Shown here: one piece after another, positions 37 to 30,952 of the stretch
How positions within the stretch are numbered: the stretch's first letter is position 1
Layout of the letters: each line of letters begins with the position of its first letter
From: a virus
Reading direction: 5' to 3' (one strand)
IMG/VR virus record: IMGVR_UViG_3300025759_000228
Span: 1 to 39,772 of that record
Length of the DNA stretch: 39,772 bases
Position numbers and translations under genes: made by a program
Notes under the pieces: model-generated
Seen by the model: only the letters and a program-made list of their open reading frames with translations
Told to the model about the DNA's origin: nothing
The model's database searches: none

Positions 37-948
37 ATGGCTACTTTATATTCAACATATCAAGCTCAACAAAATGCGCGAGACGTATCGGACTTTGTAA
101 CAAATGTATCCCCAAAGGATAGTCCGTTTTTTTCATTAATTGGATCAAACGCCGGAGGATCTCGATTAAAAGAGAATGTAACTGATTCTTTAGCAGCAGC
201 GAACAAGGACAATGCATTAGCAGAAGGTGGTACATTTTCAGATGATACAATTGGCACTAGATCTACTGAGTCAAACTATATGCAGATTTTTGATAAAGTC
301 ATTAATGTTACGGGGACTCAAGAAGAAGTTCTCAAATATGGCGGTGTTAAATCAGAGCTTGCTTATCAGGTTAAGAAACGTTTTACTGAACTTGCGACTG
401 ACGTTGAAGAGGCTTTCATTCAAGGTGTCTCAGCTTCTGGGACAACAGCGGTTGCACGTAAACTCAATGGTCTTGTGGCAAAGATCACCACAAATACAGC
501 CACAGCAGATATTACTGGCGCTACATGGACTGGAACAAGTGACGCTAACTTAGCAGCTTTTGAAGATTCACTTAATGATATGTTTGACCAAATGTGGACA
601 ACGGGACAAGCCCCAGACACAGTATTAGTTGGTGGTGACCGTAAGAGACGAATTTCTAAGTTATCAACTAAAGTAACACGAAACGTTGAGGCCGAGCGCA
701 AAACACAAATTTTATCAATTAACGTATATGATTCAGATTTTGGTACAGTAAATGTCATTCTTGATAGATACGTTCCTGACGCAAATATTCTAGCGGTAGC
801 TCTAGATATGTGGGAAGTTTCATATTTAAGACGTTTTACACAATTCAAATTAGCAAAGACTACTGATAGCACTCGTATTGCTATTGTTGGTGAGCTAACA
901 TTGGATGGTAAGACAGAGAAGGCTGGCGGTAAAATTACAGCTTCATAA
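37..948 (+). CDS. Major capsid protein, SU10/DUF5309 type
   Basis: This 303-residue protein resembles the SU10-like major head protein family (DUF5309) over its whole length. The recognisable family features are an N-terminal segment on partner-domain contacts (SPKDSPFFSLIG), then the DSLAAANKDNALAEG stretch, the TGTQEEVLKYG segment, and near the C-terminus SDFGTVNVILDR followed by YLRRFTQFKLAKT. The fold is expected to be HK97-like and the protein would form the icosahedral shell. The start has a strong AAGGAG site 8 bases upstream. It follows the portal and one small gene (across the circular join) and is followed by a clear intrinsic terminator, which suits a gene expressed at high level. 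No separate scaffold or maturation protease is recognisable next to it. Confidence 0.92.
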   Translation: MATLYSTYQAQQNARDVSDFVTNVSPKDSPFFSLIGSNAGGSRLKENVTDSLAAANKDNALAEGGTFSDDTIGTRSTESNYMQIFDKVINVTGTQEEVLKYGGVKSELAYQVKKRFTELATDVEEAFIQGVSASGTTAVARKLNGLVAKITTNTATADITGATWTGTSDANLAAFEDSLNDMFDQMWTTGQAPDTVLVGGDRKRRISKLSTKVTRNVEAERKTQILSINVYDSDFGTVNVILDRYVPDANILAVALDMWEVSYLRRFTQFKLAKTTDSTRIAIVGELTLDGKTEKAGGKITAS

Positions 949-1047: not shown

Positions 1048-1380
1048 ATGTTTACTTTACAAGAATTGGCTATAGCTTCAGATGTGGACCTGTCACGAAT
1101 AAATCCAGAGATGTCTGATTTTGATCAAAAGGTAGAGATGGCTAATCAGCTTGTTAAAAAGTGGATGAAAAACCCTAAAAACAGAGAGTATCTTGATGAA
1201 AAAAAATCAGATTACATCCATGACAGAGGCTGGTCCGTAGGCTCTAACTTTAAGCATGAGGTCGATATACCTCAGGAAGCTTTTCTTCTATTACCTAAAG
1301 AGATACGTAGTGATAAAAAAGAACTTATGAAATGGGCATCAAGGTATCACCCGTATCTTTTTCATAAAAGTGTAGTATGA
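1048..1380 (+). CDS. Hypothetical protein, first gene of the sugar cassette
   Basis: A 110-residue soluble protein that I do not recognise. It is charged, rich in Lys and Asp, and has an aromatic C-terminal part (WASRYHPYLFHKS) but no membrane segment or metal motif. The ATG lacks a ribosome-binding site and sits 6 bases after a promoter -10 box, so it may be translated from a leaderless message. Its stop overlaps the start of the next gene (ATGA), which suggests translational coupling and a shared process with the GT-B-like, methyltransferase and glycosyltransferase genes that follow. Confidence 0.7.
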   Translation: MFTLQELAIASDVDLSRINPEMSDFDQKVEMANQLVKKWMKNPKNREYLDEKKSDYIHDRGWSVGSNFKHEVDIPQEAFLLLPKEIRSDKKELMKWASRYHPYLFHKSVV

Positions 1381-2099
1381 GTCACCCATGCATTGATTGG
1401 ATACCTTCAGAAGTAGCTCTAAGATGCAATATTTTTTGGACATTAGATTTTGGCATCCCAGAATTACCAGGACCAAAAATTTGGATTGAGCACGGCATCC
1501 CTGATAATCATGTTCTATCTAAGAGGCAATTCCATGATGATGTACATTATCTTTGTAATAATAATTGGACGTATGATAACTTAAAAAAAAACGGCTTAAT
1601 GGCTTATCATGTAGGTAGTATTTATACGGACATGACAATTCCTCGTCGTAGAAATCCATCTAAACTTGTATATGCGCCTCAGCATTGTAGAATGGAGCAT
1701 CATAGTTTACCTGTGGAATGGAATCAAGAACCTCTGACTAAATTGGAGTTAGAAAAAATATGCGAAGATTATGATTGTGATGGATACATTACATCTATTG
1801 TTGATGATACTCAAAGGGATTTGTACGATCACTTAAATCCAATAATGAGTAATAGATTTTACAATATGGGTCGTGAACATTTTAAAAAATGTCAGTTTTT
1901 ATATGAAAACGCAAAAGTTGTCTATTCGGACCTGATGTCGACATTCGATATAGTTGCCGAATCACACGGGATTAAGGTGATAGGCAGGGGCAATCAAAAT
2001 ATGCCTCGTGATTACGATAATATAGAGGTATTAACAGATGGACAGTCATGCGCTCGTATTTTAAAGGTCATAAAGGAGATACTGGATGGATTTTCTTAA
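1377..2099 (+). CDS. GT-B-fold-like sugar enzyme (glycosyl/glycerophosphotransferase or 2-epimerase type)
   Basis: This 240-residue protein has the spacing of motifs seen in CDP-glycerol-type transferases and UDP-GlcNAc 2-epimerases (GT-B fold). In order they are an early IEHGIPDN loop, a KLVYAPQH strand-loop where these families often have a YAPT-like motif, and a late VVYSDLMSTFDIVAESHGIKVI stretch resembling the acceptor/donor-site Ser-Asp...Glu...G region. It is shorter than typical members (350-400 residues), so one lobe may be reduced. It starts by ATGA overlap with the upstream gene and overlaps the next by 14 bases. The family call is an inference from motif pattern only; a NeuC-like role would fit the NeuB/NeuA genes elsewhere but is not shown. 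Confidence 0.5.
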   Translation: MSHPCIDWIPSEVALRCNIFWTLDFGIPELPGPKIWIEHGIPDNHVLSKRQFHDDVHYLCNNNWTYDNLKKNGLMAYHVGSIYTDMTIPRRRNPSKLVYAPQHCRMEHHSLPVEWNQEPLTKLELEKICEDYDCDGYITSIVDDTQRDLYDHLNPIMSNRFYNMGREHFKKCQFLYENAKVVYSDLMSTFDIVAESHGIKVIGRGNQNMPRDYDNIEVLTDGQSCARILKVIKEILDGFS

Positions 2100-2787
2100 A
2101 TCTTTAGACTTACCATTAGCTAAAAAGTATAGATCGGTAATATTTATGCATCCTAGATGGACCCCGTTGTCTGCCTGGACACAACATATACCGTTTGCAT
2201 TTTTTTTAATGGCAGTTATGAAGCCTAAGAAAGTTGTTGAGCTAGGATCTTTTTTAGGTTCTTCATTTTTTGCTTTTTGCCAAGCAGCTAAAGAACTTGA
2301 TATAGACACGCAGTGTTATGCAGTGGATACATGGGAAGGAGATAAGCATGCGGGTCACTATGATGATGATATATATAAGACTGTTGTGGCAGCGCATTCT
2401 CATTATAGGGAGTTTGCATATTTATTGCGGATGACATTTGATAAAGCAAATAAATTATCTGAAACTAACAATGTGGATTTGTTGCATATAGATGGGCTTC
2501 ATACATATGAGGCTGTCAAACATGATTTTGAAACATGGTTACCAAAGATGTCTGATAATGGTGTAATTATATTTCACGATACAACTGAGATGAAAGAGGA
2601 TTTTGGAGTCTGGAGATTATGGAATGAAATATCAACACAGTATCCATCGGCGAATTTCTCTCACGGTCATGGTCTTGGGATATTGCTGGTGGGGAGTAAA
2701 GTAAAAAAAGAACTTAGGAGGTTTGTTAAAGATAAACACTTCCATTCTTACGAACATCTATTTCACATACTTGGAGTATCTATATGA
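2086..2787 (+). CDS. Class I SAM-dependent methyltransferase (Methyltransf_24-like)
   Basis: A 233-residue protein with a clear Rossmann methyltransferase core. Motif I is VVELGSFLGSS (near residue 50), an acidic strand end follows at CYAVDTWEGD (near residue 80), then the VDLLHIDGLHTYEAVKHD segment and the NGVIIFHDT motif. The HIDGxHxY...D and HD patterns are typical of the Methyltransf_24 group, often linked to sugar or cell-envelope methylation. An AAGGAG site lies inside the previous gene, and the last codons overlap the glycosyltransferase start (ATGA). Acting after or with the glycosyltransferases, it may methylate a transferred sugar; the substrate cannot be read from the sequence. Confidence 0.8.
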   Translation: MDFLKSLDLPLAKKYRSVIFMHPRWTPLSAWTQHIPFAFFLMAVMKPKKVVELGSFLGSSFFAFCQAAKELDIDTQCYAVDTWEGDKHAGHYDDDIYKTVVAAHSHYREFAYLLRMTFDKANKLSETNNVDLLHIDGLHTYEAVKHDFETWLPKMSDNGVIIFHDTTEMKEDFGVWRLWNEISTQYPSANFSHGHGLGILLVGSKVKKELRRFVKDKHFHSYEHLFHILGVSI

Positions 2788-4010
2788 TTAAAAAACAAAA
2801 AGGTTGGAAGTTAAGAGTATGTATAATATCCAAAAATAAAGGTTTTTGTTACTACTACAGATTGAAGTGGCCTTTAGCTGAGCTAGAGAAGAGAGGGTTA
2901 GTTGAAACGCGAGGTTTAGATTGGTCAAACCCTGAATTTAAGAGGAATATAGGTAAGTACATGTCAGATGCCGTAGAGTGGGCAGATGTTATTATATTTC
3001 ATTATACAAACCCTTCTGATATTTTAGTTAGATTTAATGATTTTGCAATACAGAATAAATTACCTAAATTATTTGTGTCAGAATTTGATGATGATTTTAC
3101 ATGTGTCCATCCATCTAACAGTTATTACAGGTATGCCGGAATAAAGAATATTCAGTTATCTGATGGTAATTATGCTTGGAAAGATGGGGAATTGTGTGAT
3201 CCACTTGGGGAGTATAATGATGCAAGCGATTCTGAAAAAGACGCTTTTCGATTTAATATTTTAAGAAATAAGGCAAGAATGGCGAAGATGTTTAGAGCTC
3301 TCATATATTCAGATGTCATAACCTGTACAACCCCAGATCTCGGATTAACATTTAATAAGTGGAACGAAAACGTTTCTATTTTACCTAATTTTATTAACCC
3401 AGATGAAATGAACTACCCTGGTAAAAAGAAGAGGCGTGACCATGTATTAATAGGGTGGCAAGGTGGTGATAGTCATCATCACGATTTAAAAATGATTATG
3501 CCGGCATTAAAAATGATTAAGGAAAAGTACAAGGATAATGTCAAATTTAGATTTTATGGAGCAGCTTTTGTTAATATGTATAAAGAAATAAATGGTGAAC
3601 ATATAGAGTGGATAGATCCAGAAAAATTTAATAAAGTATTTTCAGAAGACCTTATTGATATAGGGATAGTCCCATTAATAGATCCAGAGATTAATCGTTT
3701 CAATAACTCAAAATCTAATATAAAATGGCTTGAGTATTCACACTACGCAATACCATCCGTAGTTTCTGGGTGTAAACCATACGTTCAACATATAGAGGAT
3801 GGGAAGACAGGGCTTTTGGCTTATAGTGTAAATGACTGGTTTAATCACATATGCAAACTTATAGATGACCCTATTTATAGATTTAAATTAGGATCAGATG
3901 CAAAAAAACATGTTGATTTAAATTTCTCTATCCAGAATCATGCGTATAAGTGGTATGATTTATATATGAATGCGCTTAATGCAAAGGTTAAGCATTTATC
4001 TACAATATGA
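2784..4010 (+). CDS. Glycosyltransferase, GT4-like (GT-B fold)
   Basis: A 408-residue protein with a typical GT4/Glycos_transf_1 C-terminal lobe. The LPNFINPDEM linker (around residue 205) is followed by LIGWQGGDSHHHDL, then DIGIVPLIDPEINRFNNSKSN and KWLEYSHYAIPSVVSG, where the E of the EX7E-like motif is expected, and IEDGKTGLLA. The N-terminal acceptor lobe is more divergent. It would move a sugar from a nucleotide donor to a protein or glycan acceptor in the cytoplasm. It is the last gene of the cassette, 14 bases before the adaptor gene, with no terminator between. Its position in the late operon right after the capsid gene favours decoration of virion protein, though host-envelope modification is equally possible. 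Confidence 0.8.
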   Translation: MIKKQKGWKLRVCIISKNKGFCYYYRLKWPLAELEKRGLVETRGLDWSNPEFKRNIGKYMSDAVEWADVIIFHYTNPSDILVRFNDFAIQNKLPKLFVSEFDDDFTCVHPSNSYYRYAGIKNIQLSDGNYAWKDGELCDPLGEYNDASDSEKDAFRFNILRNKARMAKMFRALIYSDVITCTTPDLGLTFNKWNENVSILPNFINPDEMNYPGKKKRRDHVLIGWQGGDSHHHDLKMIMPALKMIKEKYKDNVKFRFYGAAFVNMYKEINGEHIEWIDPEKFNKVFSEDLIDIGIVPLIDPEINRFNNSKSNIKWLEYSHYAIPSVVSGCKPYVQHIEDGKTGLLAYSVNDWFNHICKLIDDPIYRFKLGSDAKKHVDLNFSIQNHAYKWYDLYMNALNAKVKHLSTI

Positions 4011-4024
4011 AATAAGGATTTAAT

Positions 4025-6389: not shown

Positions 6390-6390
6390 T

Positions 6391-7713: not shown

Positions 7714-7726
7714 AAGGATAAAAAAA

Positions 7727-7972: not shown

Positions 7973-7974
7973 CT

Positions 7975-8717: not shown

Positions 8718-8727
8718 GGAGATAAGT

Positions 8728-9063: not shown

Positions 9064-9376
9064 AAGTGATTTTCAAGAGCCAAAAGATAGGTATTTTGCA
9101 GCTGAGAATCTTAATTTTCAGGTCGGTTCAAGCCCTACTATTTCAGATATTTCTGGATCTATTGGGATACCCAGTATAGATGGTCACATTCTATGTAAGA
9201 ATACAGCCGGTTCTACCGGAAATATATTAGTTGAAATAAGTAATGATGGATTAAATTATGGTGACCAATTTACATTATTTAACACAGAGACGTTTGATTT
9301 AAGTGGATTAAGTATAAAGAAGATAAGAATAACACATTCTGGAACTGATTCAGGCTTTAGGCTATTTGCGCGATAA
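9053..9376 (+). CDS. Small beta-rich structural protein
   Basis: A 107-residue protein with alternating beta strands (ENLNFQVGSSPTISDISG, NILVEISNDGLNYGDQFTLF, KKIRITHSG) and a C-terminal GFRLFAR. The VEISNDGLNYGD part resembles the EFSSDGVNWDE strand pair in the larger next protein, so the two may share a jelly-roll-like or Ig-like domain. It starts inside the end of the previous gene with an AAAGG site and ends by TAATG overlap with the next gene. A virion decoration or fibre-base role is inferred only. Confidence 0.6.
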   Translation: MSFKSDFQEPKDRYFAAENLNFQVGSSPTISDISGSIGIPSIDGHILCKNTAGSTGNILVEISNDGLNYGDQFTLFNTETFDLSGLSIKKIRITHSGTDSGFRLFAR

Positions 9377-11256: not shown

Positions 11257-11281
11257 TAGTATAAATAAAGAGAGGTAGATT

Positions 11282-17948: not shown

Positions 17949-18103
17949 TTTTTTAGCTCCTCATTATCTTTAGTTATTAAATACCATATATACGCAGACA
18001 TCGACATATTTCTTTTATTAGCACACTCCTTCATATATTTCTTTTGATCTGAATTTACTCTCATATAGAAGTGCTCTGACTTCTTATTGTTTATAATAAC
18101 CAT
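17945..18103 (-). CDS. Ribbon-helix-helix-like small protein
   Basis: 52 residues, MVIINNKKSEHFYMRVNSDQ and so on. The basic start, the strand FYMRVN, then helices SDQKKYMKECANKRN and SMSAYIWYLI match the ribbon-helix-helix layout of small DNA-binding regulators. The start at 18103 has AAGGA 8 bases upstream and lies inside the end of the dehydratase gene (13-base overlap). It could regulate the early unit. Target unknown. Confidence 0.6.
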   Translation of the reverse strand: MVIINNKKSEHFYMRVNSDQKKYMKECANKRNMSMSAYIWYLITKDNEELKK

Positions 18104-19104
18104 CTATCATTCCTTAATGACCAGTATACGGTATTACAAAGATTATCCATGACGTTTCCTGGCTCCCACCCTATAGACTTCATTCTAGAACCATCTAATG
18201 CATACCTCAAGTCGTGCCCTGGTCTTGATGAGTGGAAGTCCACCATCTCATATATTAATTCTTTACCAACGTTTAAAGCTATTGTCTTTGCAAGCTCAAG
18301 ATTATCTATTTCCTTTGACCCCACAATATTGAATTTCTGACATTTTACACCGCTATCGTGTATGGGCATGTTAACTGTATCGTAATTTATAAGATGCAAA
18401 AGTGCAGATGCGACATCTTTTGCATGTATATAATGCCTAGAACCAGCCTTTTTCATTGACTCATCCGAGTGTATTGTTACTTTCTGACCATCCCTAACCT
18501 TCTTAATGCACATTGGTATGAATTTTTCTGGATGCTGACGCTCTCCAAATACATTCATAGTATGTGTAATTATAGCTGGTAGTCCGTATGTGTTGTGATA
18601 GGCTACTACAAGCTCCTCAGCAGCAGCTTTTGATGCGCTATAAGGGTTTGTCGAGTTATATCTATCATACTCTTTATACGATAAACCCTGTGGTGCTGGA
18701 CCAAATATTTCGTCCGTAGAAAAATATATAAACTTCTTTAATGATTTAAGTTTTCTTGCATAATCCATGATATTTACTGTACCTACTGTATTATCAAGAA
18801 CAAAATCCATAGGGTAATCAATTGATCTATCTACATGAGACCCTGCTGCAAGGTGCGCGATATAGTCAACATCTCCAATCATTTTTGATATCATAGGGTT
18901 TACTGCCGACTTTAAGTCATGATGTACGATTGATAATCGTTTTGAGTTTTTTACAGAATCCATATTTAGATCTGAAATTCTATTTAGATTTCCACTATAG
19001 TCTAGTCTATCAAGACATACTATATCCCAATCAGTATTCAGGTAAATGTATTCTAGTAAATGATGCCCTATGAATCCGGCTGCACCAGTTATTAATATCC
19101 TCAT
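18091..19104 (-). CDS. NAD-dependent sugar-nucleotide 4,6-dehydratase (RmlB-like)
   Basis: A 337-residue extended short-chain dehydrogenase. The NAD-binding GAAGFIGHH (residues 7-15) is intact, as are HLAAGSHVDRS (about 84-94), the dehydratase active-site STDE at 129-132 and the YSASK catalytic pair, Tyr155 and Lys159. The substrate region NVFGERQHPEKFIPMCI matches the NYGPyqfPEKLIPl stretch of dTDP-glucose 4,6-dehydratases, so a dTDP-hexose or UDP-HexNAc 4,6-dehydratase is expected. This makes 4-keto-6-deoxy sugar nucleotides, precursors of rhamnose-type or bacillosamine-type sugars (and of pseudaminic or legionaminic acid if UDP-HexNAc is used). It overlaps the upstream DUF6378 gene by 4 bases. 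Confidence 0.88.
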   Translation of the reverse strand: MRILITGAAGFIGHHLLEYIYLNTDWDIVCLDRLDYSGNLNRISDLNMDSVKNSKRLSIVHHDLKSAVNPMISKMIGDVDYIAHLAAGSHVDRSIDYPMDFVLDNTVGTVNIMDYARKLKSLKKFIYFSTDEIFGPAPQGLSYKEYDRYNSTNPYSASKAAAEELVVAYHNTYGLPAIITHTMNVFGERQHPEKFIPMCIKKVRDGQKVTIHSDESMKKAGSRHYIHAKDVASALLHLINYDTVNMPIHDSGVKCQKFNIVGSKEIDNLELAKTIALNVGKELIYEMVDFHSSRPGHDLRYALDGSRMKSIGWEPGNVMDNLCNTVYWSLRNDRWLL

Positions 19105-19379
19105 TCCAAACCCTCTATCATAGCAGCAGTTCTAGCATACCCTGCCATATCTACTAAATTGTCTCTTTTATGAGCAGCCTTCTCTCTTGCTACTTTAAAT
19201 AAAACCATCATTAAAGACACATCCTTCTTAGACACATCTACACCTAGATATCCTGACCATAGATCAGCTATATCCTGGAAGTTGTGCTTAGGATCCCCGT
19301 ACTGAGTCATTCTATTATTGGATGTTATGTCTAAAGCTTCCATTAATATAGACGCATCCTTCTCGTTTTTTATCTGCAT
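19101..19379 (-). CDS. DUF6378 protein
   Basis: 92 residues from the ATG at 19379, which has GAGGAG 8 bases before it; the longer frame to 19457 would translate through the upstream hairpin and the end of the nuclease gene and is not favoured. It carries the DUF6378 pattern NNRMTQYGDPKHNFQDIADLW, then SKKDVSLMMVLFKVAREKA and KRDNLVDMAGYARTAA. DUF6378 proteins are common in phage early regions; their role is not established, but they resemble all-alpha NTP pyrophosphohydrolase-like helical domains in pattern. Confidence 0.75.
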   Translation of the reverse strand: MQIKNEKDASILMEALDITSNNRMTQYGDPKHNFQDIADLWSGYLGVDVSKKDVSLMMVLFKVAREKAAHKRDNLVDMAGYARTAAMIEGLE

Positions 19380-19400
19380 TTTTTGTCTCCTCAAATAAAT

Positions 19401-19440
19401 ACCACCCTGGTGCCCAGGGAGGGGGGTGACCCAGGATGGT
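19401..19440 (-). promoter_or_regulatory. GC-rich hairpin before the DUF6378 gene
   Basis: Read on the minus strand, ACCATCCTGG (19440-19431) pairs with CCAGGGTGGT (19410-19401); the single T/G contact is a wobble in RNA, so the arms pair over 10 bp only in the mRNA sense. The 20-base loop contains C6 and CCCTGGG. It lies 8 bases upstream of the ribosome-binding site of the next gene, has no T run, and is far more GC-rich than its surroundings. It could shape translation or mRNA stability. Confidence 0.6.
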
Positions 19441-19443
19441 AAT

Positions 19444-19454
19444 ATACAATGTAT
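19444..19454. promoter_or_regulatory. Palindrome ATACAATGTAT
   Basis: Perfect inverted repeat ATACA-A-TGTAT at the end of the nuclease gene. A second palindrome (TGTAT-C-ATACA, 19450-19460) overlaps it. The same 11-mer (opposite strand reading) recurs at 32526-32536 beside the internal early promoter, so both may bind the same regulator. Confidence 0.4.
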
Positions 19455-19759
19455 CATACAGTGTTATCTATTTCAATTATTTTATCTATTACTTCCTGGA
19501 CACTCTTCGCAACAAAAGCAATCCCACCACAGTTATTGACGCTATCGATAAACCAATCTTGTAGCTTCGTCGTCCCTTTCTTGTTACTTGGAGTCTTAAC
19601 CTCGATAGCAACGAATTTCCCTTTATAAACACCGATGAGGTCTGAGATACCAGCCATTTGCATTGGCCCCCCATGTATCTTAAAAAAGAATGACTGGTCA
19701 TAACTGTTTAGCTCCTTTTTTATTTTTAGTACGAGTGCGCTTTCTTGCTTCATTGCCAT
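19454..19759 (-). CDS. VRR-NUC domain nuclease
   Basis: A 101-residue PD-(D/E)xK nuclease of the stand-alone VRR-NUC type. Visible signatures are FFFKIHGGPMQMAGISDLIGVYKG (substrate/metal Asp in ISDLIG near residue 39), VAIEVKT (the E-x-K pair near residues 52-54) and WFIDSVNNCGGIAFVAKS. Such small phage proteins act on branched or nicked DNA, for example during recombination or packaging. The start at 19759 lies inside the end of the preceding gene (62-base overlap); it is needed to keep the N-terminal helix typical of the family. Confidence 0.88.
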   Translation of the reverse strand: MAMKQESALVLKIKKELNSYDQSFFFKIHGGPMQMAGISDLIGVYKGKFVAIEVKTPSNKKGTTKLQDWFIDSVNNCGGIAFVAKSVQEVIDKIIEIDNTV

Positions 19760-20174
19760 TTAAAATATCTCCTTCGAATTGTACTTTAATTTCATGTATC
19801 TTTCTTAAATCTTTACAACTGTAATTTTTTAACTCCTCTGTTTCTGATGGGGTGTATTTTATAATCTCTCCATTCTTAATATTTCTAAATATCCAAGTTC
19901 TTTGATCTTCACTTATATACATTTTATGATCATCTAAAAAACTTAGACCACCCATCGGTATTACTCTTTCAGGGATATTTTTAAGACCCCCCCAGGCGTA
20001 AGATTCAGACTCTTCCCTCCATCCAATATTTTTATAATGCTCCTTTGCTAAACTAACACAGTCATTATGTACTTTTATAAATTTATTATAGTTAGCCTCT
20101 GTATTGATAGTCATTACATATTCACGAACCTTACATAACGCCTTATATTGTGGCGTTGTAAAAAACATACTCAT
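19698..20174 (-). CDS. Hypothetical early protein
   Basis: A 158-residue soluble protein with no family that I recognise. It opens with a helix (TPQYKALCKVREYVMTI) and has a central WREESESYAWGGLKNIPERV stretch with a following DHKMYISEDQRTWIF strand pair. It ends in a very basic tail (ARKRTRTKNKKGAKQL) that could contact nucleic acid. That tail is coded by DNA also used by the start of the VRR-NUC gene. It begins by 1-base overlap with the primase-helicase stop, so the two are co-translated and may work in replication. Confidence 0.65.
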   Translation of the reverse strand: MSMFFTTPQYKALCKVREYVMTINTEANYNKFIKVHNDCVSLAKEHYKNIGWREESESYAWGGLKNIPERVIPMGGLSFLDDHKMYISEDQRTWIFRNIKNGEIIKYTPSETEELKNYSCKDLRKIHEIKVQFEGDILNGNEARKRTRTKNKKGAKQL

Positions 20175-23113
20175 TAATCTAGCCCCTCTTCATTAAAGTC
20201 ATACTCTACTTCTGTTTTTATATTATTCATCTTATTTATATCCTCTAGAACCTCTTCGTCAAAATTGTTTTTATATGTCATTATTGCCTTTAGCATTCTG
20301 CATCTATCTAATATTATCGCAGACCCTTTTGAGCCCCCTGTATTATGGTTTTTTAGATCCGAGTCTTTATCTATTATATGAAACTTCCTCAATAATTGCT
20401 TAAGCTTCTGGTATGTCATATAACTAAAATCATCTTCATTCTCTTTACTCTTTAAGACGTCTTTAATGAAGTGATCGCTTATTCCTCTACGTATATATAC
20501 ATCGCCATCATATAGGAAGCTCATATCTTTTATTTTTCCATCCTGAACTCTTTTAATCCAAAGATATAACCTCTCTACTATCTCTAATGATTTAGTATCC
20601 CCGCCAAACGCCTCTCTTGTATCTACTCCATCCCTTGCCTTTTCAAGCATAATATTAAAAACACTCTCATTTACATGTGACTTATCATCTATTAGCTTTG
20701 CTACACATAGGTATGGGGTCCACAACTCTTTCTGCCTAAATGTAACCTTACTCTTTTTTAACTCTTCGCGCTTATTAGATAATGATGTTCTGTAGATATC
20801 GTCAACATCCTTCGCGTACTGCATCCCAAAGCAATAGATCATATCTCTAAGCTCCTGAGATTCATCTTTCACGTTAGCCTCTATAAGCTCCTCTATCTCA
20901 ACGCCCTCCATGGCTCTAATCATCTCTAATAAAATCATCCTATCTTCAAGTATGGAGTCGGCGCCTTTTGTTCCAGCAAATATTTTCATACAGTAGTTAT
21001 GAAACGTAACAACCGAGTTCGATTGTCCCTCACACCTTGTTGCCGAACCGCTCTTTTTGTACCCAGCCTTCAAAAGTTCTAATTTTTCTGACTGCCCTAC
21101 CTCTCTTTGCTTTTGAGTTGGGTTAAGATTTTCAGCTTCATCTATAAGAAGCATGCAGCGGAACGCCTCAACACTCCTAAAAAGGGCTGCATCAGATATT
21201 GATGACGCAAGTTGCGAGTTAAAACCTAAGAGATGAAATATCTCTAAAAGTGTCGTTTTGCCAGACCTTTTTTCAGCTAGAAGGTGGACATAGCCGACTG
21301 CATTGAAAACCATAAATAACGATGTCACCATTAATAATACTGCACAGAATGAAGCATCGTAATTTTTTTTAAAATAAACAAATCTATTTATAAATTTAAG
21401 AAGTTTCTCGTATAAATCTCTTGGATCTACCATGGCCTTGCCATTTACGTACTTATTTACCGAGTATGGGCCATCCTTAAAAGACCAGTACTCACACCTA
21501 TACTCAGGGCCTAATTTCCTCTGTAGCGCGAAGTTTTCTTTAATAATCTGGTAATCTTTTACTACCGAGATATCTCCATTCGAGCAAACCATTAAAACTT
21601 CATTAACAACCTTCATTATTCCATTTTTATCAGTAACGGTCTTAGGTCTTGTTATTGTGTAATAAAGAAACCCCTCCTTATAATCTTGCCCTGAGCTTAT
21701 TAGCTTTATATCATTTTCATGATCTTTAAATATAGACGACTTATCATCCTCTGTATCCTTATCTTTGAACACCTCAGTTTGACTTGAAAAGACCAAGTCT
21801 TGTATAGACCTAAGTATATTTTTAAATGATGATAACTTGAATCGTTGCTTTATCTTATCTAAAACGTAAACCTCAGCAATATGTTTCGGCATACTTGAAA
21901 GGAGGTTGCATATCGGTTCTAGTTTTAAAACGAGATCTTTCTTGTCAGTATCAGGTGGTATTTTATTAATTAAGTGATCTATATAAGATTCTGATTCTAA
22001 CTTTAATTCATGGAAAGCCTCGACACCTTTATCTTTTATAAATTCATTTAAATCTATTTTAGATACTCCAGGGCCCCTAGGCAATAGTATAACAAAAGGG
22101 TTAATGCCAGCATGTAACAACATTTCACAAATTCTATCAGTACCCTTCTGGCCAGCCTGATTTTCATCGTTATCATTAGCGATATAAACCCGTTTAAAAT
22201 TCTTACAAAATTCAACGACTCTTCCATACTCATCTCTTTTGAATGATGTCGTGACCGCAGATACGGAATTGATCCCATGCATCTTTGCTGATAAATAATC
22301 TGTAACCCCTTCCGTTATGACAACTTCATCATTGTCTTTGCTGCACTTAATTATCTGGTTTTTTATTGATTTTGATACCCATGGTCTTTTCTCAGAGTTT
22401 AAGTATTGCTTAAAATACTTTGGGGACTCTACTCCATTGCCCCAATTATTTGTTTTTGATGTCTTTCTACCTATGGTGTACTTTACCACACCGTAGTCAT
22501 TATATGGGATGACTAATCTCCCTTGGTATATATGGAATACTCCCGTCTTTGATTTTTCTGATTTATTAAATAACCCTGATGACAAAAGCTCCTCTTGAGT
22601 CCAGTATTCCCGCATATTCACCGAAGGACATACCGCACCATACCCCCATCTTTCAGTCTCTAAAAATTCTTTATTGAATCCATATTTTTTACATATAGAC
22701 TCAGCCATATTTGTTTTTTTTAACTGTGACTGATATTCGGATACCGCATATTCGATTATATCAAATACAGGCGAGTAAACACCTCCCTCATATGATGAGT
22801 CCTGTTGATTTATCTCATATTTATTTGCAAGGTATTTTATAGCCCCTTTAAATGACTCTGATGCTTTTTTACCTCTTGAGCATGACCCAAATTTTATTAG
22901 CTCTATTAGATGTATATAATTACCGGATACACCGCAGTTAAAGCAATTAAATGTCGGCTCTATTGTGTTTACCTGAAAGCTAGTCCCAGACTTGCTACTA
23001 TGCCCCACAGGGCATTTCCCTATATAGTTATGCCCATTTTCTTTCATCTCTGGGAGATAGCTTAATACCTCACTTATAGTGAGTCTTTTATTTATCTCAT
23101 CTATTATATTCAT
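20174..23113 (-). CDS. Primase-helicase (zinc-finger, TOPRIM and P-loop ATPase)
   Basis: A 979-residue replication protein. Residues 34-60 form a CHC2-like zinc finger (Cys34, His38, Cys57, Cys60). A TOPRIM domain follows at about 263-330, with EVVITEGVTD (Glu268) and the metal-binding DND at 313-315. The central region is charged. An ATPase domain lies from about 605, with the P loop AEKRSGKTT (GKT at 618-620) and Walker B LLIDEAE (655-661). This is the DNA-loading and primer-making engine of the phage. The start overlaps the previous stop by one base (TAATG). No polymerase gene accompanies it, so a host replicative polymerase is probably recruited. Confidence 0.9.
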   Translation of the reverse strand: MNIIDEINKRLTISEVLSYLPEMKENGHNYIGKCPVGHSSKSGTSFQVNTIEPTFNCFNCGVSGNYIHLIELIKFGSCSRGKKASESFKGAIKYLANKYEINQQDSSYEGGVYSPVFDIIEYAVSEYQSQLKKTNMAESICKKYGFNKEFLETERWGYGAVCPSVNMREYWTQEELLSSGLFNKSEKSKTGVFHIYQGRLVIPYNDYGVVKYTIGRKTSKTNNWGNGVESPKYFKQYLNSEKRPWVSKSIKNQIIKCSKDNDEVVITEGVTDYLSAKMHGINSVSAVTTSFKRDEYGRVVEFCKNFKRVYIANDNDENQAGQKGTDRICEMLLHAGINPFVILLPRGPGVSKIDLNEFIKDKGVEAFHELKLESESYIDHLINKIPPDTDKKDLVLKLEPICNLLSSMPKHIAEVYVLDKIKQRFKLSSFKNILRSIQDLVFSSQTEVFKDKDTEDDKSSIFKDHENDIKLISSGQDYKEGFLYYTITRPKTVTDKNGIMKVVNEVLMVCSNGDISVVKDYQIIKENFALQRKLGPEYRCEYWSFKDGPYSVNKYVNGKAMVDPRDLYEKLLKFINRFVYFKKNYDASFCAVLLMVTSLFMVFNAVGYVHLLAEKRSGKTTLLEIFHLLGFNSQLASSISDAALFRSVEAFRCMLLIDEAENLNPTQKQREVGQSEKLELLKAGYKKSGSATRCEGQSNSVVTFHNYCMKIFAGTKGADSILEDRMILLEMIRAMEGVEIEELIEANVKDESQELRDMIYCFGMQYAKDVDDIYRTSLSNKREELKKSKVTFRQKELWTPYLCVAKLIDDKSHVNESVFNIMLEKARDGVDTREAFGGDTKSLEIVERLYLWIKRVQDGKIKDMSFLYDGDVYIRRGISDHFIKDVLKSKENEDDFSYMTYQKLKQLLRKFHIIDKDSDLKNHNTGGSKGSAIILDRCRMLKAIMTYKNNFDEEVLEDINKMNNIKTEVEYDFNEEGLD

Positions 23114-23631
23114 TATCTTAGCTCACTAGGTAGATGGACTTCATGTGCTTTTGTTATAAGTGCACCACAGTAAGTTGATACATTACTGCTCTTTAGACAC
23201 TCACTCCTCATTGTTATTACACCGTTTTCAACCCCCTCATTATTGTATGTTCGTACTTCATTTAGATTATTTGATACCAATATGTCAGCGGTCTTTTTTA
23301 TAAACCCAGATTTAAACCCTATAACAGACGGTAGTACTACAGACACTATATCGTAGTGGTCCCCCATAGATAGGTATACCCATCTTGCTATAAGAAAAAC
23401 TGAATCCTCTGGCTCTAATGCATTCTTAGGTCGCATTAAAACACTTAGCTTATCATCACCCATTTCGAGGAACCGCTCGATGTCCGTTGCTAACGCAACT
23501 CTAGATATCCTCTTATCTCTTAGGCACTCTTTTATTACATCATCCATAAGAATCTCATTTTTACTTGGGAATCTTTTAGAGTTTTTTTTAGCGCAAATTA
23601 TTACAAGTATTTTATTAATTTCTCGTTCCAT
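23113..23631 (-). CDS. CMP-nonulosonate cytidylyltransferase-like protein (NeuA type), short form
   Basis: A 172-residue protein with the NeuA-like opening ILVIICAKKNSKRFPSKNE, which corresponds to the CTP-binding SKR...GKN loop (residues 7-25). RVALATD (44-50), VLMRPKNALEPEDS and YDIVSVVLPSVIGFKSG follow the family order. It is shorter than usual (about 220-230 residues), and the C-terminal IDxxxDL metal segment is not recognisable. It may therefore be a reduced enzyme, or have altered activity. It sits downstream of NeuB and a HAD phosphatase, with a 31-base overlap at its start. Role: activate a nonulosonic acid with CMP. Confidence 0.7.
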   Translation of the reverse strand: MEREINKILVIICAKKNSKRFPSKNEILMDDVIKECLRDKRISRVALATDIERFLEMGDDKLSVLMRPKNALEPEDSVFLIARWVYLSMGDHYDIVSVVLPSVIGFKSGFIKKTADILVSNNLNEVRTYNNEGVENGVITMRSECLKSSNVSTYCGALITKAHEVHLPSELR

Positions 23632-23903
23632 TCTTCAAACCTCACGCCTTTATCATCAATGTATAAGTCTGCCACTGGCTTCCCGAACTGAATAAGATCG
23701 TATTTAACCTTATTCCTACTTAACCAACTTTTAGTAATGCTAAGGTTGTTTATATGTCTTCCTGTGTGAATAATTACTATATTCCCTGTTTTTTTTAGTT
23801 GGGCCATAATTAAAATTGTATTTCTTATAGGACTTCTAAATTGATAATCATCATGGTCTATCTCACATATGACCCCGTCCATGTCAAAACAGTATGTCTT
23901 CAT
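23601..23903 (-). CDS. HAD-family phosphatase
   Basis: A 100-residue HAD hydrolase. Motif I is CFDMDGVIC (Asp7 and Asp9 expected nucleophile and acid), motif II IIHTGR (Thr near residue 46), and the last acidic motif is ADLYIDDKGV (Asp77-Asp78). The GKPVADLYIDDK ending is typical of small capsule/sugar-phosphate phosphatases. Between NeuB and NeuA it would remove the phosphate from nonulosonate-9-phosphate, as in sialic acid synthesis from phosphorylated precursors. It overlaps NeuB by 4 bases (ATGA) and NeuA by 31. Confidence 0.85.
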   Translation of the reverse strand: MKTYCFDMDGVICEIDHDDYQFRSPIRNTILIMAQLKKTGNIVIIHTGRHINNLSITKSWLSRNKVKYDLIQFGKPVADLYIDDKGVRFEEWNEKLIKYL

Positions 23904-24922
23904 TTTATATTCTCCATTTTTATAGCTGTCTTAGCATTTATATCTGAATTGCAAGTCTTGCCTATTAAATTGCGATAGTAATTACCAGGTATACCGTCCC
24001 CAGGGCTTAATAGACACAAATTATCTTCCGTAAAAACCTCCCCTTTTCTTATATTTCTATTAGCACATATTGACCGCATTAATTTAATTCTTGACCCCTT
24101 AATCCCGTCACCATCTATAGCCGATAATGAATGATCTAATCCTATCATTTCTTGAATATAATTCACCTGTCTCCTCATGTATCTAAATTTGACTGGTGTC
24201 AAAGATCCTTTGTGATCTGACCCCTTATCTTCAGGGTCTAATGTCATGTGCTTCTCTATTACTGTTGCCCCCATACAAACCGCAATTTTAACCGCATCTA
24301 TCCCCATCGTGTGGTCCGAGTAACCTATTCTATATCGTATTCCATATTGATTCTTTAGTGTGTTTATACGAATTAATCTAGCATCACTATCTTCTGTTGG
24401 GTATTTAGACACACAGTGCATTATTGTTACGTCTTTCTTATATAGTATCTTAAGAGCCTCTGTTAACTCGAAAAAATCACACATACCTGTAGATATTATT
24501 ATTTTTTTATCCAGAGGCTTTATCCCTTCTAATAAAGGTATGTTGGTTATGTCTCTCGATGCAATCTTAATATATTCGCATTTTGGTATTATGTGCTCTC
24601 TTATTATTCTTTTGTTTAAAAGCGTTGATGAACATAATGTAATAACTACATCCACCCCTAAATCTTTCGCCCTAATACATAAGTTGTTTATATCTACCGG
24701 ATCTAACTCTAATTTCTTTCTATGATCCATGTATGTTTTTCCGTAGCTATTTGGTGAATTATAAGGTGAATTAGCCATATCATCCGTCATCTCATTATCA
24801 AGATCTCTCATGGTTAGCTTGATTGCGTTAACCTGACTCTTTGAGGCCTTCTCTATCATGTTATATGCGGTATCAATATCCCCATTATGGTTTTGCCCTA
24901 ACTCAGCTATTATGTATGTCAT
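23900..24922 (-). CDS. neuB: N-acetylneuraminate/nonulosonate synthase (NeuB family) with SAF domain
   Basis: A 340-residue synthase. It opens with the NeuB signature YIIAELGQNHNGDIDTA, and has ITLCSS, CEYIKIASRD, KKIIISTGMCDF, MHCVSKYPT, IGYSDHT and VIEKHMTLD, the conserved metal- and PEP-binding TIM-barrel segments. The C-terminal 60 residues (SICANRNIRKGEVFTEDNL then PGDGIPGNYYRNLIGK) form the SAF/antifreeze-like domain of the family. It condenses PEP with an amino-sugar (ManNAc type, or a pseudaminic or legionaminic precursor). It overlaps the zinc-motif gene upstream by 20 bases and the phosphatase by 4. Which nonulosonic acid is made cannot be told. Confidence 0.93.
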   Translation of the reverse strand: MTYIIAELGQNHNGDIDTAYNMIEKASKSQVNAIKLTMRDLDNEMTDDMANSPYNSPNSYGKTYMDHRKKLELDPVDINNLCIRAKDLGVDVVITLCSSTLLNKRIIREHIIPKCEYIKIASRDITNIPLLEGIKPLDKKIIISTGMCDFFELTEALKILYKKDVTIMHCVSKYPTEDSDARLIRINTLKNQYGIRYRIGYSDHTMGIDAVKIAVCMGATVIEKHMTLDPEDKGSDHKGSLTPVKFRYMRRQVNYIQEMIGLDHSLSAIDGDGIKGSRIKLMRSICANRNIRKGEVFTEDNLCLLSPGDGIPGNYYRNLIGKTCNSDINAKTAIKMENIK

Positions 24923-25466: not shown

Positions 25467-26084
25467 TTAAATTAGTCCTTTTAATGTTGGTATCTCTTTA
25501 ATAAGTGTTTCTTTTATATCTAATGCTATGTCCATGTGTTCTTTCTGAGTGCCGTTACCTGTCCTTAGTTTTAGATAATGTATCCAACTACGAATCGTTC
25601 CAGACATATATAAAGTTGTTTGAGTGGATAATGGAAGTAGCGATCTTGCACATTCTTTAGCTACACCGTGCTCAATGGCTGTATTGTAAAGTTTTAAAGA
25701 CTTCTCTTGGTGATGTTTCAATACGCATTTAAACCAAGACTTCTTATCTTCTGTTAAGTCGTCATTACTCATTTGTCTATTATTAAGATCCTGACTCCTA
25801 GCTTCTTGCGTCTCGAATGACGTAGCCTCTGCATACCTTTGACTGAACTCCTGAAATGAGAAACTACGGTGTCTAAGTATCTGGGCCGATATAGCTCGAC
25901 TAGTTGTAATCTCCACACACATACTACCCATCTCAAATACAGACCAATGACCTTTGGTCATACAGTATTTTAATAGTTTAGATACATTTGGGTTATCTTG
26001 GTTTGCAGGGTTACTCACCCGTGCACAATACCCTATTACCTTCTCACATTCTGGGGTCACCCAGATTATTTTTGTTTTACTCAC
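25467..26084 (-). CDS. thyX: Flavin-dependent thymidylate synthase
   Basis: The RHRSFSFQEFSQR signature (about residues 71-83 from the chosen start) is the RHRxxSxxxxSxR motif of ThyX. Downstream, ECARSLLPLSTQTTLYMSG and HMDIALDIKE complete the fold. It makes dTMP from dUMP with methylenetetrahydrofolate and FAD. The open frame extends to ATG at 26102, but the GTG at 26084 has AGGAG 7 bases before it and gives the usual short ThyX N-terminus (SKTKIIWVTPECEKV), so it is preferred; the preceding gene's stop overlaps this region. About 205 residues. Confidence 0.93.
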   Translation of the reverse strand: MSKTKIIWVTPECEKVIGYCARVSNPANQDNPNVSKLLKYCMTKGHWSVFEMGSMCVEITTSRAISAQILRHRSFSFQEFSQRYAEATSFETQEARSQDLNNRQMSNDDLTEDKKSWFKCVLKHHQEKSLKLYNTAIEHGVAKECARSLLPLSTQTTLYMSGTIRSWIHYLKLRTGNGTQKEHMDIALDIKETLIKEIPTLKGLI

Positions 26085-26256
26085 ACTCAGACTCCTCATC
26101 AAAAAGACCTAAAACTTCCTTTTTTTGTTTATAATTCATATGTTTATATGGTGTCGTCATATCAAACATATAGTAATCATCTTTCGTTCCATCACTGTTA
26201 TATGATGTAACCATATAACATTCGTTCGGGTCTATTAAACTTATTTTTTTAAACAT
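26077..26256 (-). CDS. Small early protein upstream of ThyX
   Basis: 59 residues (MFKKISLIDPNECYMVTSYN then SDGTKDDYYMFDMTTPYKHM and a charged end LFDEESECE). It overlaps ThyX by a few bases at its 3' end, so translation is probably coupled. AAAG about 9 bases before the ATG is a weak ribosome-binding site. No family recognised. Confidence 0.5.
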   Translation of the reverse strand: MFKKISLIDPNECYMVTSYNSDGTKDDYYMFDMTTPYKHMNYKQKKEVLGLFDEESECE

Positions 26257-26385: not shown

Positions 26386-26664
26386 TCATACTAAAAACTT
26401 AGCAATTTCTATTATAGATATACTAGCGAACCCACCAGCAGCCGTTGCCATATAATCCATGGGGTCGCAGGTGTGATTCTTAGGATTTAGGTAGTCATAA
26501 ACCTCTTTCCCTATAGCTCCTGCTTGTACGGCCATTATAGATAAGGGTAAGTTACCTAATGAAACAATACCAACTAAAAAACCAACTATAAAATGACCTC
26601 TCTTGTCTTTTGCTAACTTTATCATGTGAAAATTCTCCCTTGGTGCGCTTATTAATTTATTCAT
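26386..26664 (-). CDS. Small membrane protein, YfiM/DUF2279-like pattern
   Basis: 92 residues with two or three hydrophobic segments (HFIVGFLVGIVSLGNLPLSI, SIMAVQAGAIGK, YMATAAGGFASISIIEIAKF). The pattern DKRGHFIVGF...GKEVYDYLNP...DYMATAAGG resembles small phage proteins of the YfiM/DUF2279 type (H at the start of a helix, K-E-x-Y-D, then D-x-x-A-T-x-x-G). Function unknown. It starts by ATGA overlap with the repeat-protein stop, and its stop overlaps a possible start for the next small gene. Confidence 0.5.
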   Translation of the reverse strand: MNKLISAPRENFHMIKLAKDKRGHFIVGFLVGIVSLGNLPLSIMAVQAGAIGKEVYDYLNPKNHTCDPMDYMATAAGGFASISIIEIAKFLV

Positions 26665-28166: not shown

Positions 28167-28169
28167 TTC

Positions 28170-29033: not shown

Positions 29034-29363
29034 TCATTCCTCAGCATGAACCGAATCTTTGAATAAATGCTTGAACTCTATGGGTTTTTCTATGTTCTCT
29101 ATTCCGTTAATTCTTAAATCTATAAGGTCTAAATCATCTTTTATTGATTTAAGAGTAGATTCTATATACTCTATTTTTCTACAGTAACCAACTATCTTTA
29201 ACTTAGTTTTATATATTTCAGTCTTATTGCTTATAGACATTTCCTCAATAAGGAAATTCCCTCTATCTTTAAAATCAGATATATATTCTTTCCCTTTCCT
29301 TTGTATCTCCATATAAAAGTGAATCATTCCGACAACTCCTAATATAGTTAAGATCTCTATCAT
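29034..29363 (-). CDS. Membrane-anchored hypothetical protein
   Basis: 109 residues with an N-terminal hydrophobic segment (residues 3-19, EILTILGVVGMIHFYM) and a long charged helical remainder with probable coiled coil (IEYIESTLKSIKDDLDLIDLR). It starts one base inside the helicase stop (29363 shared) and lies 15 bases before Lar. No family recognised. Confidence 0.6.
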   Translation of the reverse strand: MIEILTILGVVGMIHFYMEIQRKGKEYISDFKDRGNFLIEEMSISNKTEIYKTKLKIVGYCRKIEYIESTLKSIKDDLDLIDLRINGIENIEKPIEFKHLFKDSVHAEE

Positions 29364-30952
29364 TATTCTGCTCCCTTGACAAACGCCAATGCTTCTCTAC
29401 TTGTAAAATCTTTCTTCTTCAACGACCCATAAATCGCCTTATCAACTGTATTTTTAGCAAGTAAGTAAATGTAAAAAATACAATCGTGCTTACTTCCGGT
29501 AGCCCTCAATATCCGGCCTTTACTCTGGATGTGATTTTTTCTAGAGTAATCTAACTCATAAAATATACAATACCTAGCGTTAGGTAGGCTGTATCCCTCT
29601 GATTTTTGTATCTGCGCAATAAATACACGTGAATCATCATTATTAAACTTCAGATAAACTTCCTTATCCTTAGTTCTTCCATCATAAATATGGTAACCAA
29701 GATTCATCTTTTCACAAAGCTCTGCGACCCTATCTATACTCCTTGTGAATCTGCAAAATATCAAAACCTTATCTGTTATCTGACTCAAAGTTTCTTTTAA
29801 AACATCCAGCTTCTCAGTCCCTACATACTCAACCGTATCGCTATCCTTATCCACTAAATACCCTGAAGTTATTTGAGATAACCTAAGTAATCTCTCTAGT
29901 ACATTTTGAGCAACGACCTGACCACTATCTACCCCAACAATCATCTCGTCTTTCATCTGGCTGTAAAGCTTCTTGGATTTATTACTTAATACTATATCTT
30001 TAATTATAACCTGCTCATCTGGGAGGTTATCTATTACGTCCCTTATGTCAAATTTTATAGAGTTACTAGCCACCAACCTCTTGAGCTCATTTTGTTTCTT
30101 ATACCCTATAACCTGGTTAAACATTGGCTCAGTTATGATGTACCTCTCCTTAAACCTTGTAAAGTGAGGCCCGAATATTGACTGGTCTACTACCTTATAC
30201 GGCATGAATAAATCTTCATAATTATTACTTATTATTGTTCCGGTTAAACCAACCTTGATGTTTATCCCTTGCGTTGCATTATATGCATCCTTAGATCTAT
30301 TTGACGTTCTACTTTTACAATAGTGAACCTCGTCAAAAACTACCATATCATATCCTTTTTTTAAGATATCCTGACTCAACTTCCCTAGTACCTCATAATT
30401 AACAATATCAAAAAGTGTTGTTGAGTTGCTTATTAGATCTTTTCTTTTTGTGATAGACCCATAAATTATAGTGCTATCAAAGTCTGAGTGTACCTTTATC
30501 TCGTTCGCAAAGTTCCACATTATAGATGCAGGTGATACAATTAAGACCTTCTTTACTCGTCCCATGTCCCATAGCAAGGTAGCTGCGTCAATAGCTGCCT
30601 TGCTCTTCCCTGTTCCTACTCCAGCGAATATAAAGCATTTCTGTCTTTTAACTATAAGGGCAGTTATATGCTCTTGATGTTTAAACTGCTTAGTTTTGAA
30701 CTCTTTGTTTAACTTGAAGTTTTTTATTGCTCGATTTTTATTTGCGAAATACTCTGAAACTTTGGGGCACACCTCTATATCAATCCCCTCATCCTTCACC
30801 GTCTCTAGTATCTGGTTATACACCACTATAGACGGCTCAAACATCCAAGATTTATATCTTCTATTCCATCTGCCCTTTAGAGAAGCTGGTATGTCCCGTC
30901 TCTCATAAGGGCAGTCTAAGAAAATCTTGCTATCTTTACTTCTAAGTTTCAT
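29363..30952 (-). CDS. SNF2/superfamily 2 helicase
   Basis: A 529-residue helicase. The P loop is FAGVGTGKSKAA (residues 109-120), the DEVH box FDEVHYCK at 206-213, and motif III-like VGLTGT follows. The C-terminal lobe has KVLIFCRFTRSIDRV, VFIAQIQKSEGYSLPNA and the motif VI region QSKGRILRATGSKH. About 85 residues before the P loop are a separate N-terminal domain. This class is common in phage early regions and could remodel DNA-protein complexes or assist recombination and replication. It overlaps the upstream ribbon-helix-helix gene by 4 bases (ATGA). Confidence 0.9.
   Translation of the reverse strand: MKLRSKDSKIFLDCPYERRDIPASLKGRWNRRYKSWMFEPSIVVYNQILETVKDEGIDIEVCPKVSEYFANKNRAIKNFKLNKEFKTKQFKHQEHITALIVKRQKCFIFAGVGTGKSKAAIDAATLLWDMGRVKKVLIVSPASIMWNFANEIKVHSDFDSTIIYGSITKRKDLISNSTTLFDIVNYEVLGKLSQDILKKGYDMVVFDEVHYCKSRTSNRSKDAYNATQGINIKVGLTGTIISNNYEDLFMPYKVVDQSIFGPHFTRFKERYIITEPMFNQVIGYKKQNELKRLVASNSIKFDIRDVIDNLPDEQVIIKDIVLSNKSKKLYSQMKDEMIVGVDSGQVVAQNVLERLLRLSQITSGYLVDKDSDTVEYVGTEKLDVLKETLSQITDKVLIFCRFTRSIDRVAELCEKMNLGYHIYDGRTKDKEVYLKFNNDDSRVFIAQIQKSEGYSLPNARYCIFYELDYSRKNHIQSKGRILRATGSKHDCIFYIYLLAKNTVDKAIYGSLKKKDFTSREALAFVKGAE

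Follow-up and report, generated by a model that had tools for sequence, protein, structure and literature searches.

What is a phage of about 40 kb doing with genes for a sialic-type sugar among its replication genes, and which sugar would they make? The question is raised by the IMG/VR virus record IMGVR_UViG_3300025759_000228, which we analyzed over its whole length of 39,772 bases (the window). An earlier note on this DNA had read a NeuB-type synthase, a HAD phosphatase and a NeuA-like cytidylyltransferase as a phage-encoded pathway to a nonulosonic acid activated with cytidine monophosphate (CMP). It had added a sugar-nucleotide 4,6-dehydratase further along the same unit, and had suggested that the sugar serves the virion or alters the host surface. 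We found all four open reading frames (ORFs) on the minus strand (Table 1), and the first three are indeed co-oriented and overlapping: NeuB and HAD share 4 bp, and HAD and the cytidylyltransferase-like gene share 31 bp. The observation proved sound and the broad idea right, with the dehydratase excluded and the pathway probably of the Kdn (2-keto-3-deoxynononic acid) type. From sequence comparisons we propose, with moderate confidence, that this triad is a phage-streamlined pathway to CMP-Kdn, which would most likely decorate phage structural proteins by way of a phage glycosyltransferase.

The NeuB protein places among the nonulosonate synthases. It scored 190.4 bits against Pfam NeuB (PF03102; 4.5e-56, cut-off 22.1) and 26.5 bits against the SAF domain (9.6e-6, cut-off 21), and along its length it could be aligned with NeuB, PseI and SpsE chains of known structure. 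Compared with Neisseria meningitidis NeuB, twelve residues are kept (E25, K53, T110, K129, S132, S154, Y186, S213, H215, E234, H236 and D247). These are phosphoenolpyruvate (PEP), metal or otherwise conserved positions. The claim that NeuB retains all its catalytic signatures therefore stands for the PEP and metal residues, but not for the residues that contact the sugar, which are replaced: we found the substitutions Q55T, N74S, F112C, N184S, F288K and R314S, with Lys280 of the window protein in the place of Phe288 and Ser306 in that of Arg314. All six are identical in the window, in its relative G004 (terminase 67% identical), in the viral contig L043 and in 20 to 21 of 21 bacterial rows, in a residue table that left out L067 and L185. 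Because a cysteine at 112 and a serine at 184 also occur in SpsE or PseI, the telling changes are those of Gln55, Phe288 and Arg314. Mannose-6-phosphate carries no N-acetyl group, and, as a speculation, the lysine that replaces Phe288 could contact its phosphate. In the N. meningitidis enzyme, according to PMC6795526, Arg314 contacts N-acetylmannosamine (ManNAc) and may position the N-acetyl group, and the R314A mutant is inactive.

We scanned bacterial genomes with a profile of the phage NeuB and took the best 80 loci of 557 relatives, which are mostly from Bacteroidota and encode NeuBs of 38-43% identity. A cytidylyltransferase is present in 73 of these 80 loci, usually just upstream of NeuB, and a homologue of PDB 3e81 in 79, where it lies downstream of NeuB at a distance of at most about 0.8 kb, in some loci behind an intervening gene; in the single exception (L128), the sequence ends 137 bases past NeuB. 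We take 3e81 to be the Kdn-9-phosphate phosphatase of Bacteroides; the PDB listing names it an acylneuraminate cytidylyltransferase. In the reverse direction, 3e81 was searched against 393 genomes from the same order as locus L119, of which 31 matched at E <= 1e-40. All 12 of the loci fetched from among them, one being L119's genome again, had a neighboring NeuB with the SPG motif of the clade. The same 393 genomes held no near-identical copy of the B. thetaiotaomicron phosphatase by which to locate BT1714, the best match being 72% identical. Phylogeny placed the window NeuB with these mostly Bacteroidota NeuBs that lie beside 3e81 homologues, together with some viral NeuBs (SH-aLRT 98 and 96, starred), and away from the reference rows, namely Neisseria NeuB, Moritella NeuB, 6ncs, PseI and SpsE (98, starred). 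In five bacterial loci (L118, L130, L176, L185 and L192), NeuB and the cytidylyltransferase are apparently fused, since a single large ORF matches the profiles of both.

The HAD protein scores below the Pfam cut-offs, and its nearest relatives are phosphatases of the EcbF/BcbF type (TIGR01689, 2.1e-11, short of the model cut-off). It also matches phrog_1238 (4.3e-20) and PDB 1xpj (1.4e-6), and its DxD, T, K and DD motifs are complete (D7/D9, T47, K75 and D83/D84). As described in PMC6200933, the routes of B. thetaiotaomicron, Prymnesium parvum and humans use phosphorylation and dephosphorylation, and many bacteria need no phosphate removal. A HAD phosphatase would be superfluous in the usual bacterial ManNAc route; taken with the NeuB clade and the active-site changes, its presence points to a Kdn-9-phosphate route. 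One-sequence profiles found neither a 2-epimerase (NeuC) nor an aminotransferase (DegT) in the window, and a synthase, a phosphatase and a cytidylyltransferase without a 2-epimerase would fit a complete set for the conversion of mannose-6-phosphate to CMP-Kdn. In the pathway that we propose, NeuB would join host mannose-6-phosphate and PEP into Kdn-9-phosphate, as its clade and active site suggest, and the minimal HAD would remove the phosphate. The cytidylyltransferase-like protein would then form CMP-Kdn from Kdn and cytidine triphosphate, which is the weakest step. Finally, a phage glycosyltransferase, for which the cassette at 1377-4010 is the candidate, would move Kdn onto structural proteins.

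The same three enzyme roles make up the Kdn pathway of B. thetaiotaomicron, whose Kdn-9-phosphate synthase (BT1714) and Kdn-9-phosphate phosphatase are cited in PMC6200933. The phage NeuB falls in a clade found beside homologues of the B. thetaiotaomicron-type phosphatase and has the same substituted residues as that clade, BT1714 itself not being part of the comparison. The two systems differ in the phosphatase, which is an EcbF/BcbF-like HAD of 100 amino acids in the phage and of the KdsC type in Bacteroides, and in the cytidylyltransferase, which has 172 amino acids compared with about 250 in bacterial loci. P. parvum likewise goes from mannose-6-phosphate to CMP-Kdn, and its PpNeuA (9t4z) is among the top fold matches of the phage NeuA-like model. 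However, this system is algal and very different in sequence, and the part of PMC6200933 that we drew on does not identify its phosphatase gene.

Several points weigh against the CMP-Kdn reading, those that concern the third protein being given with it below. The NeuB tree has 57 rows, of which five are references, was made by a quick method and contains some long branches; the biochemically tested BT1714 lies outside it and is linked to the clade only through the neighboring phosphatase. The phage HAD shows no recognizable homology to 3e81, with 0 viral loci matched by phmmer at E 1e-5. In the other viral groups described below, HAD and NeuB are rarely adjacent (they lie within 100 bases of each other in 4 of 61 groups and within 1 kb in 9). 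Neither Terminase_6N nor a T4-type portal was found in L042, L043, L047 and L048, the contigs nearest in module and NeuB, so that their viral nature rests on IMG/VR. A Pfam scan of 20 window ORFs found no sialyltransferase or Maf family. Lastly, the capsid-adjacent cassette persists in a second relative, G005 (terminase 64% identical), without the triad, and hence cannot depend on Kdn alone.

Two proteins encoded just behind the capsid gene are candidate transferases, the glycosyltransferase (2784-4010) and the protein at 1377-2099. G004, G005 and the fragment L019 also have their cassette. The protein at 1377-2099, which all three share, has no Pfam or NCBIfam match, and its AlphaFold2 (AF2) model has a mean predicted local distance difference test (pLDDT) of 38. 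A comparable cassette, with two glycosyltransferases, a methyltransferase and a NodB-like protein, lies at the same place in the podovirus MW202801, and glycans on the capsid and tail tube of mycobacteriophages are cited in PMC12619734. Given that G005 has kept the cassette but not the triad, the virion glycan could vary in composition, with Kdn as one of its optional sugars. We infer a use of Kdn in virion or host glycosylation, and we have also considered glycosylation of DNA. The main alternative to virion decoration is that CMP-Kdn modifies the host surface, for superinfection exclusion or masking. This rivals only the use of the sugar, so that its odds overlap with those of the CMP-Kdn reading, and we regard it as possible but somewhat doubtful. 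The location of the triad among replication genes, not structural ones, suits an action before assembly, and no transferase was identified for CMP-Kdn; yet the only glycosyltransferase-like genes found sit right behind the capsid gene, as in the cassette of MW202801.

A second alternative concerns the sugar itself: the module may make another nonulosonate, of the N-acetylneuraminic acid (Neu5Ac), legionaminic acid (Leg) or pseudaminic acid (Pse) type, from a hexose precursor supplied by the host. We consider this unlikely. The best curated models for the window NeuB are those for N-acetylneuraminate synthase (TIGR03569, 245.3 bits) and pseudaminic acid synthase (TIGR03586, 189.5 bits), and some viral NeuBs (L005 and L057) group with PseI, L005 holding a Pse/Leg-like set. 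Against this, both equivalog cut-offs (399.65 and 340.25 bits, respectively) are missed widely, Arg314, Gln55 and Phe288 are all replaced, a ManNAc route would need no phosphatase, and one-sequence profiles found no 2-epimerase or aminotransferase in the window. The missed cut-offs and replaced residues, together with the tree position, disfavor canonical synthesis of Neu5Ac, Pse or Leg.

The cytidylyltransferase-like protein is the weakest member of the triad by sequence, and its predicted fold resembles that of CMP-sugar synthetases. Its score against CTP_transf_3 (15.4 bits, E 0.016) lies below the cut-off of 22.6, whereas its G004 orthologue passes with 23.5 bits (5.4e-5). A PDB sequence search gave no convincing match. 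The segment AKKNSKRFPSKN lines up with the ARxxSxRxPxKN-like N-terminal nucleotide-binding motif of other cytidylyltransferases. The C-terminal DxD of these enzymes binds metal; their 'DID' motif corresponds, in a gappy alignment, to E-V-H/E-I-H here, and other segments diverge. The AF2 model, made from two sequences, is poor (mean pLDDT 60.5). For this low-confidence model, Foldseek returned the CMP-NeuAc synthetase 6ifd first (1.1e-5), with the CMP-Kdn synthetase 9t4z (2.5e-5) and the CMP-Pse synthetase 9ftc (7.8e-5) among the other top matches. VIA-align gave CMP-NeuAc synthetase a Z of 13.6, with GlmU, ArnC and IspD within 1, and thus confirms only the nucleotidyltransferase fold. The protein might therefore be degenerate or have another job, with the pathway ending at free Kdn or using a host CMP-synthetase. 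Its length of 172 amino acids, its Pfam score and its divergent C-terminal motif would all agree with that idea. We nevertheless hold it to be quite improbable: the protein is kept in G004, where the copy clears the Pfam cut-off, and the top structural matches are CMP-sialate synthetases.

G004 retains all three genes, ordered as in the window and flanked by helicase and primase, with protein identities to the window of 48% for NeuB, 57% for HAD and 43% for the cytidylyltransferase-like protein, which has the same length and its own conserved motifs there. Between the window and G004, each of the three genes is least conserved at third codon positions, and the same holds for the genes of the primase, capsid protein and terminase. 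The helicase upstream bounds the triad slot in both G004 and G005, and the window has extra genes in between. In G005, the triad is not in the helicase-primase interval, which holds a SAF-domain ORF of 66 amino acids (L027 9497-9697). This ORF matches the SAF end of the G004 NeuB at 22 of 55 positions (E 2e-8, two-sequence comparison) and the window NeuB at 11 of 45 (2e-4), and reaches 0.0085 against Pfam SAF, below the cut-off; we interpret it as a remnant of a NeuB that was lost. The contigs of both relatives are possibly incomplete, so that absence elsewhere in those genomes is unproven. The earlier note had raised the possibility of identical host genes, and we found no close bacterial copy of NeuB among the best 80 of 557 relatives, the best NeuBs being 38-44% identical. 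Conservation in G004 and the lack of a close bacterial copy among these loci support the three genes as a phage-encoded unit. That they are captured host fragments without function is scarcely credible: the loss from G005, save the SAF remnant, suggests that they are dispensable in some relatives, but their frames are open and overlapping, the set and its order persist in G004 at 43-57% protein identity, codon positions 1 and 2 are more conserved than position 3, and no close bacterial copy was met among the loci compared.

The dehydratase had been counted as part of the pathway, and this claim we reject. Its best model is RmlB (TIGR01181, 245 bits, under the equivalog cut-off), and it scores only 108.2 bits against the LegB model (cut-off 475) and 33.8 bits against PseB (cut-off 407.75). 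Moreover, neither the dehydratase nor ThyX has a tblastn match in the contigs, which may be incomplete, of G005 or of G004, where the triad is kept. On sequence grounds, the triad behaves as a separate unit, and we see no link between it and the dehydratase.

Does the module recur in other viruses? A scan of IMG/VR with a four-sequence NeuB profile found a relative encoded in 506 of 556 candidate stretches; the best 80 of the 506 were kept, giving 79 loci. Of these, 75 belong to neither the window's own virus nor G004, and they form 61 groups at 90% identity. A cytidylyltransferase accompanies NeuB within 8 kb in 51 of the 61 groups, within 1 kb in 36 and within 100 bases in 22; for a cytidylyltransferase and a HAD together, the counts are 23, 5 and 1. 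As a control, 20 stretches of 17 kb, taken from 11 of the same contigs away from NeuB, contained 0 cytidylyltransferases and 1 HAD. The exact order NeuB-HAD-cytidylyltransferase, with overlaps, is found in L043/L044, and the order HAD-NeuB-cytidylyltransferase in L046/L047. These loci, with L042 and L048, have the same three gene types and NeuB signature as the window, but their contigs measure 28-130 kb and contain large glycan clusters, their cytidylyltransferases have about 230 amino acids and their NeuB has an N-terminal insertion. Terminase_6N was found in 12 of 50 NeuB contigs tested (50 of the 75 loci were given). A T4-type portal was found in 5 of 17, all five among the 12 with Terminase_6N. 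PHROGs identified a terminase and a portal in L053, and a terminase, a head-tail adaptor and a major head protein in L005. Outside the 35-row clade of the window NeuB, 12 of 17 viral tree rows have 272-307 amino acids, too few to include a SAF domain, and so the products probably comprise several types of nonulosonate.

Some of these loci hold further sugar genes. GT29 is known mainly from eukaryotes; in L008 (LR756508, an uncultured phage of 484 kb), four GT29 homologues (7247-7879, 9978-10661, 10642-11322 and 11319-12068; Pfam 1.6e-26 to 5.6e-32) surround NeuB (7914-8813), and one of them matches the alpha-2,3-sialyltransferase 2wnb at 4.7e-16. The Pse/Leg-like set of L005 (IMGVR_UViG_3300036861_000067, 2527-10981) lies directly upstream of the phage terminase and head-tail adaptor and consists of a Polysacc_synt_2 dehydratase, a short DegT-like ORF, a cytidylyltransferase and a PseI-type NeuB, with GNAT-like and HisF-like ORFs that were judged by eye. 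In the cyanophage AG-345-L05 (Kyanoviridae; L007, 6116-9142), a cytidylyltransferase, a DegT aminotransferase, a short NeuB and a HAD stand in a row. The family PF01973 includes the Maf transferases of flagellin nonulosonates, and MptE-like (PF01973) genes, below the Pfam cut-off, lie near the NeuB module in L042 (10663-11436), L047 (10922-11683) and L048 (11131-11934).

A partial look at the open-access literature found no description of a phage nonulosonate pathway, save a virome list. In that study (Roux et al. 2013, PMC3877843), uncontaminated viromes contained 126 neuB reads in 8 and 11 neuA reads in 5; these are reads only, without gene order, clade or pathway. If the proposal is right, it would help to explain neuB reads in clean viromes, and sugars of the sialic acid type would seem to be widely used when phages and hosts recognize one another. 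It would mean that a phage devotes replication-module genes to building a sugar acid, using a CMP-nonulosonate gene set more compact than any other that we encountered. The vague idea that sugar genes of phages work for the virion or on the host surface could then be tested directly with three small enzymes. We tentatively extend the proposal, as a picture that is quite possible but short of probable: tailed phages may widely make and display sialic-acid-like sugars. In a 40-kb podovirus-like phage, a Bacteroidota-type Kdn pathway would have shrunk to some 1.8 kb, its phosphatase being a non-orthologous one of 100 amino acids and its CMP-synthetase one of 172, and the virion would be coated with Kdn, while larger phages would pair NeuB with transferases of their own, including GT29 homologues.

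Table 1. Features of the window discussed in the text, with the basis of each assignment.
Feature	Coordinates	Strand	Basis
NeuB-family nonulosonate synthase, predicted Kdn-9-phosphate synthase; 340 amino acids, TIM barrel and SAF	23900..24922	-	Pfam, clade, residues
Minimal HAD phosphatase, 100 amino acids, predicted nonulosonate-9-phosphate phosphatase	23601..23903	-	TIGR01689, phrog_1238, motifs, PDB 1xpj
Compact cytidylyltransferase-like protein, 172 amino acids, predicted CMP-nonulosonate synthetase	23113..23631	-	CTP_transf_3, orthologue, Foldseek
RmlB-like nucleotide-sugar 4,6-dehydratase, outside the triad	18091..19104	-	TIGR01181 8.6e-73
Primase-helicase, downstream neighbor of the triad	20174..23113	-	phrog_6444 2.5e-31; same place in G004 and G005
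Helicase, upstream of the triad	29363..30952	-	phrog_62 4.8e-94
ThyX	25467..26102	-	gene near the triad
Major capsid protein	37..948	+	phrog_1328 2.2e-75
Possible transferase beside the capsid gene, otherwise of no recognized family	1377..2099	+	phrog_6697 0.016 only
Methyltransf_24 methyltransferase of the capsid-adjacent cassette	2086..2787	+	PF13578 3.6e-25
Glycosyltransferase of the capsid-adjacent cassette	2784..4010	+	phrog_7162 3.8e-39; Glyco_trans_1_4 9.5e-5, below cut-off

The plus strand of the window carries head, portal-like and terminase genes, the terminase matching phrog_38 (1.5e-88), and the minus strand a long run of genes, among them those for primase, helicase and thymidylate synthase. 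The triad lies in this run between the primase gene, which the cytidylyltransferase-like gene abuts at base 23113, and a small ORF downstream of ThyX; early expression of the unit, as had been supposed, is inferred from its co-orientation with replication genes only. Contig L012 joins both ends of the window with 885 bases between them, so that the capsid gene comes after the gene at 37501-39522. Two other IMG/VR records contain 21 kb round the locus at 99.995% identity (one mismatch). A third is 100% identical over 13.5 kb at the locus and differs further along at 41 of 12,429 bases; the samples behind these three records are possibly not independent. The best capsid match among the 15 of 315 records listed, which are of phages with varied hosts, has 37% identity, and a search of named phages gave no match to the protein at 1377-2099 or to that at 4617-6389.

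The window also encodes repeat-built proteins. On the plus strand, a run of DIQAP/DIQSP-like repeats (about 12595-12957) lies inside the protein at 12400-14202, which gave a low-complexity match to Extensin below the cut-off. On the minus strand, 26661-28823 encodes two related proteins of 501 and 217 amino acids with a common N-terminus, made up mostly of imperfect short QYGNSR-like repeats. G005 has repeat-built proteins as well, and one stretch of it matches this region by tblastn at 43%.

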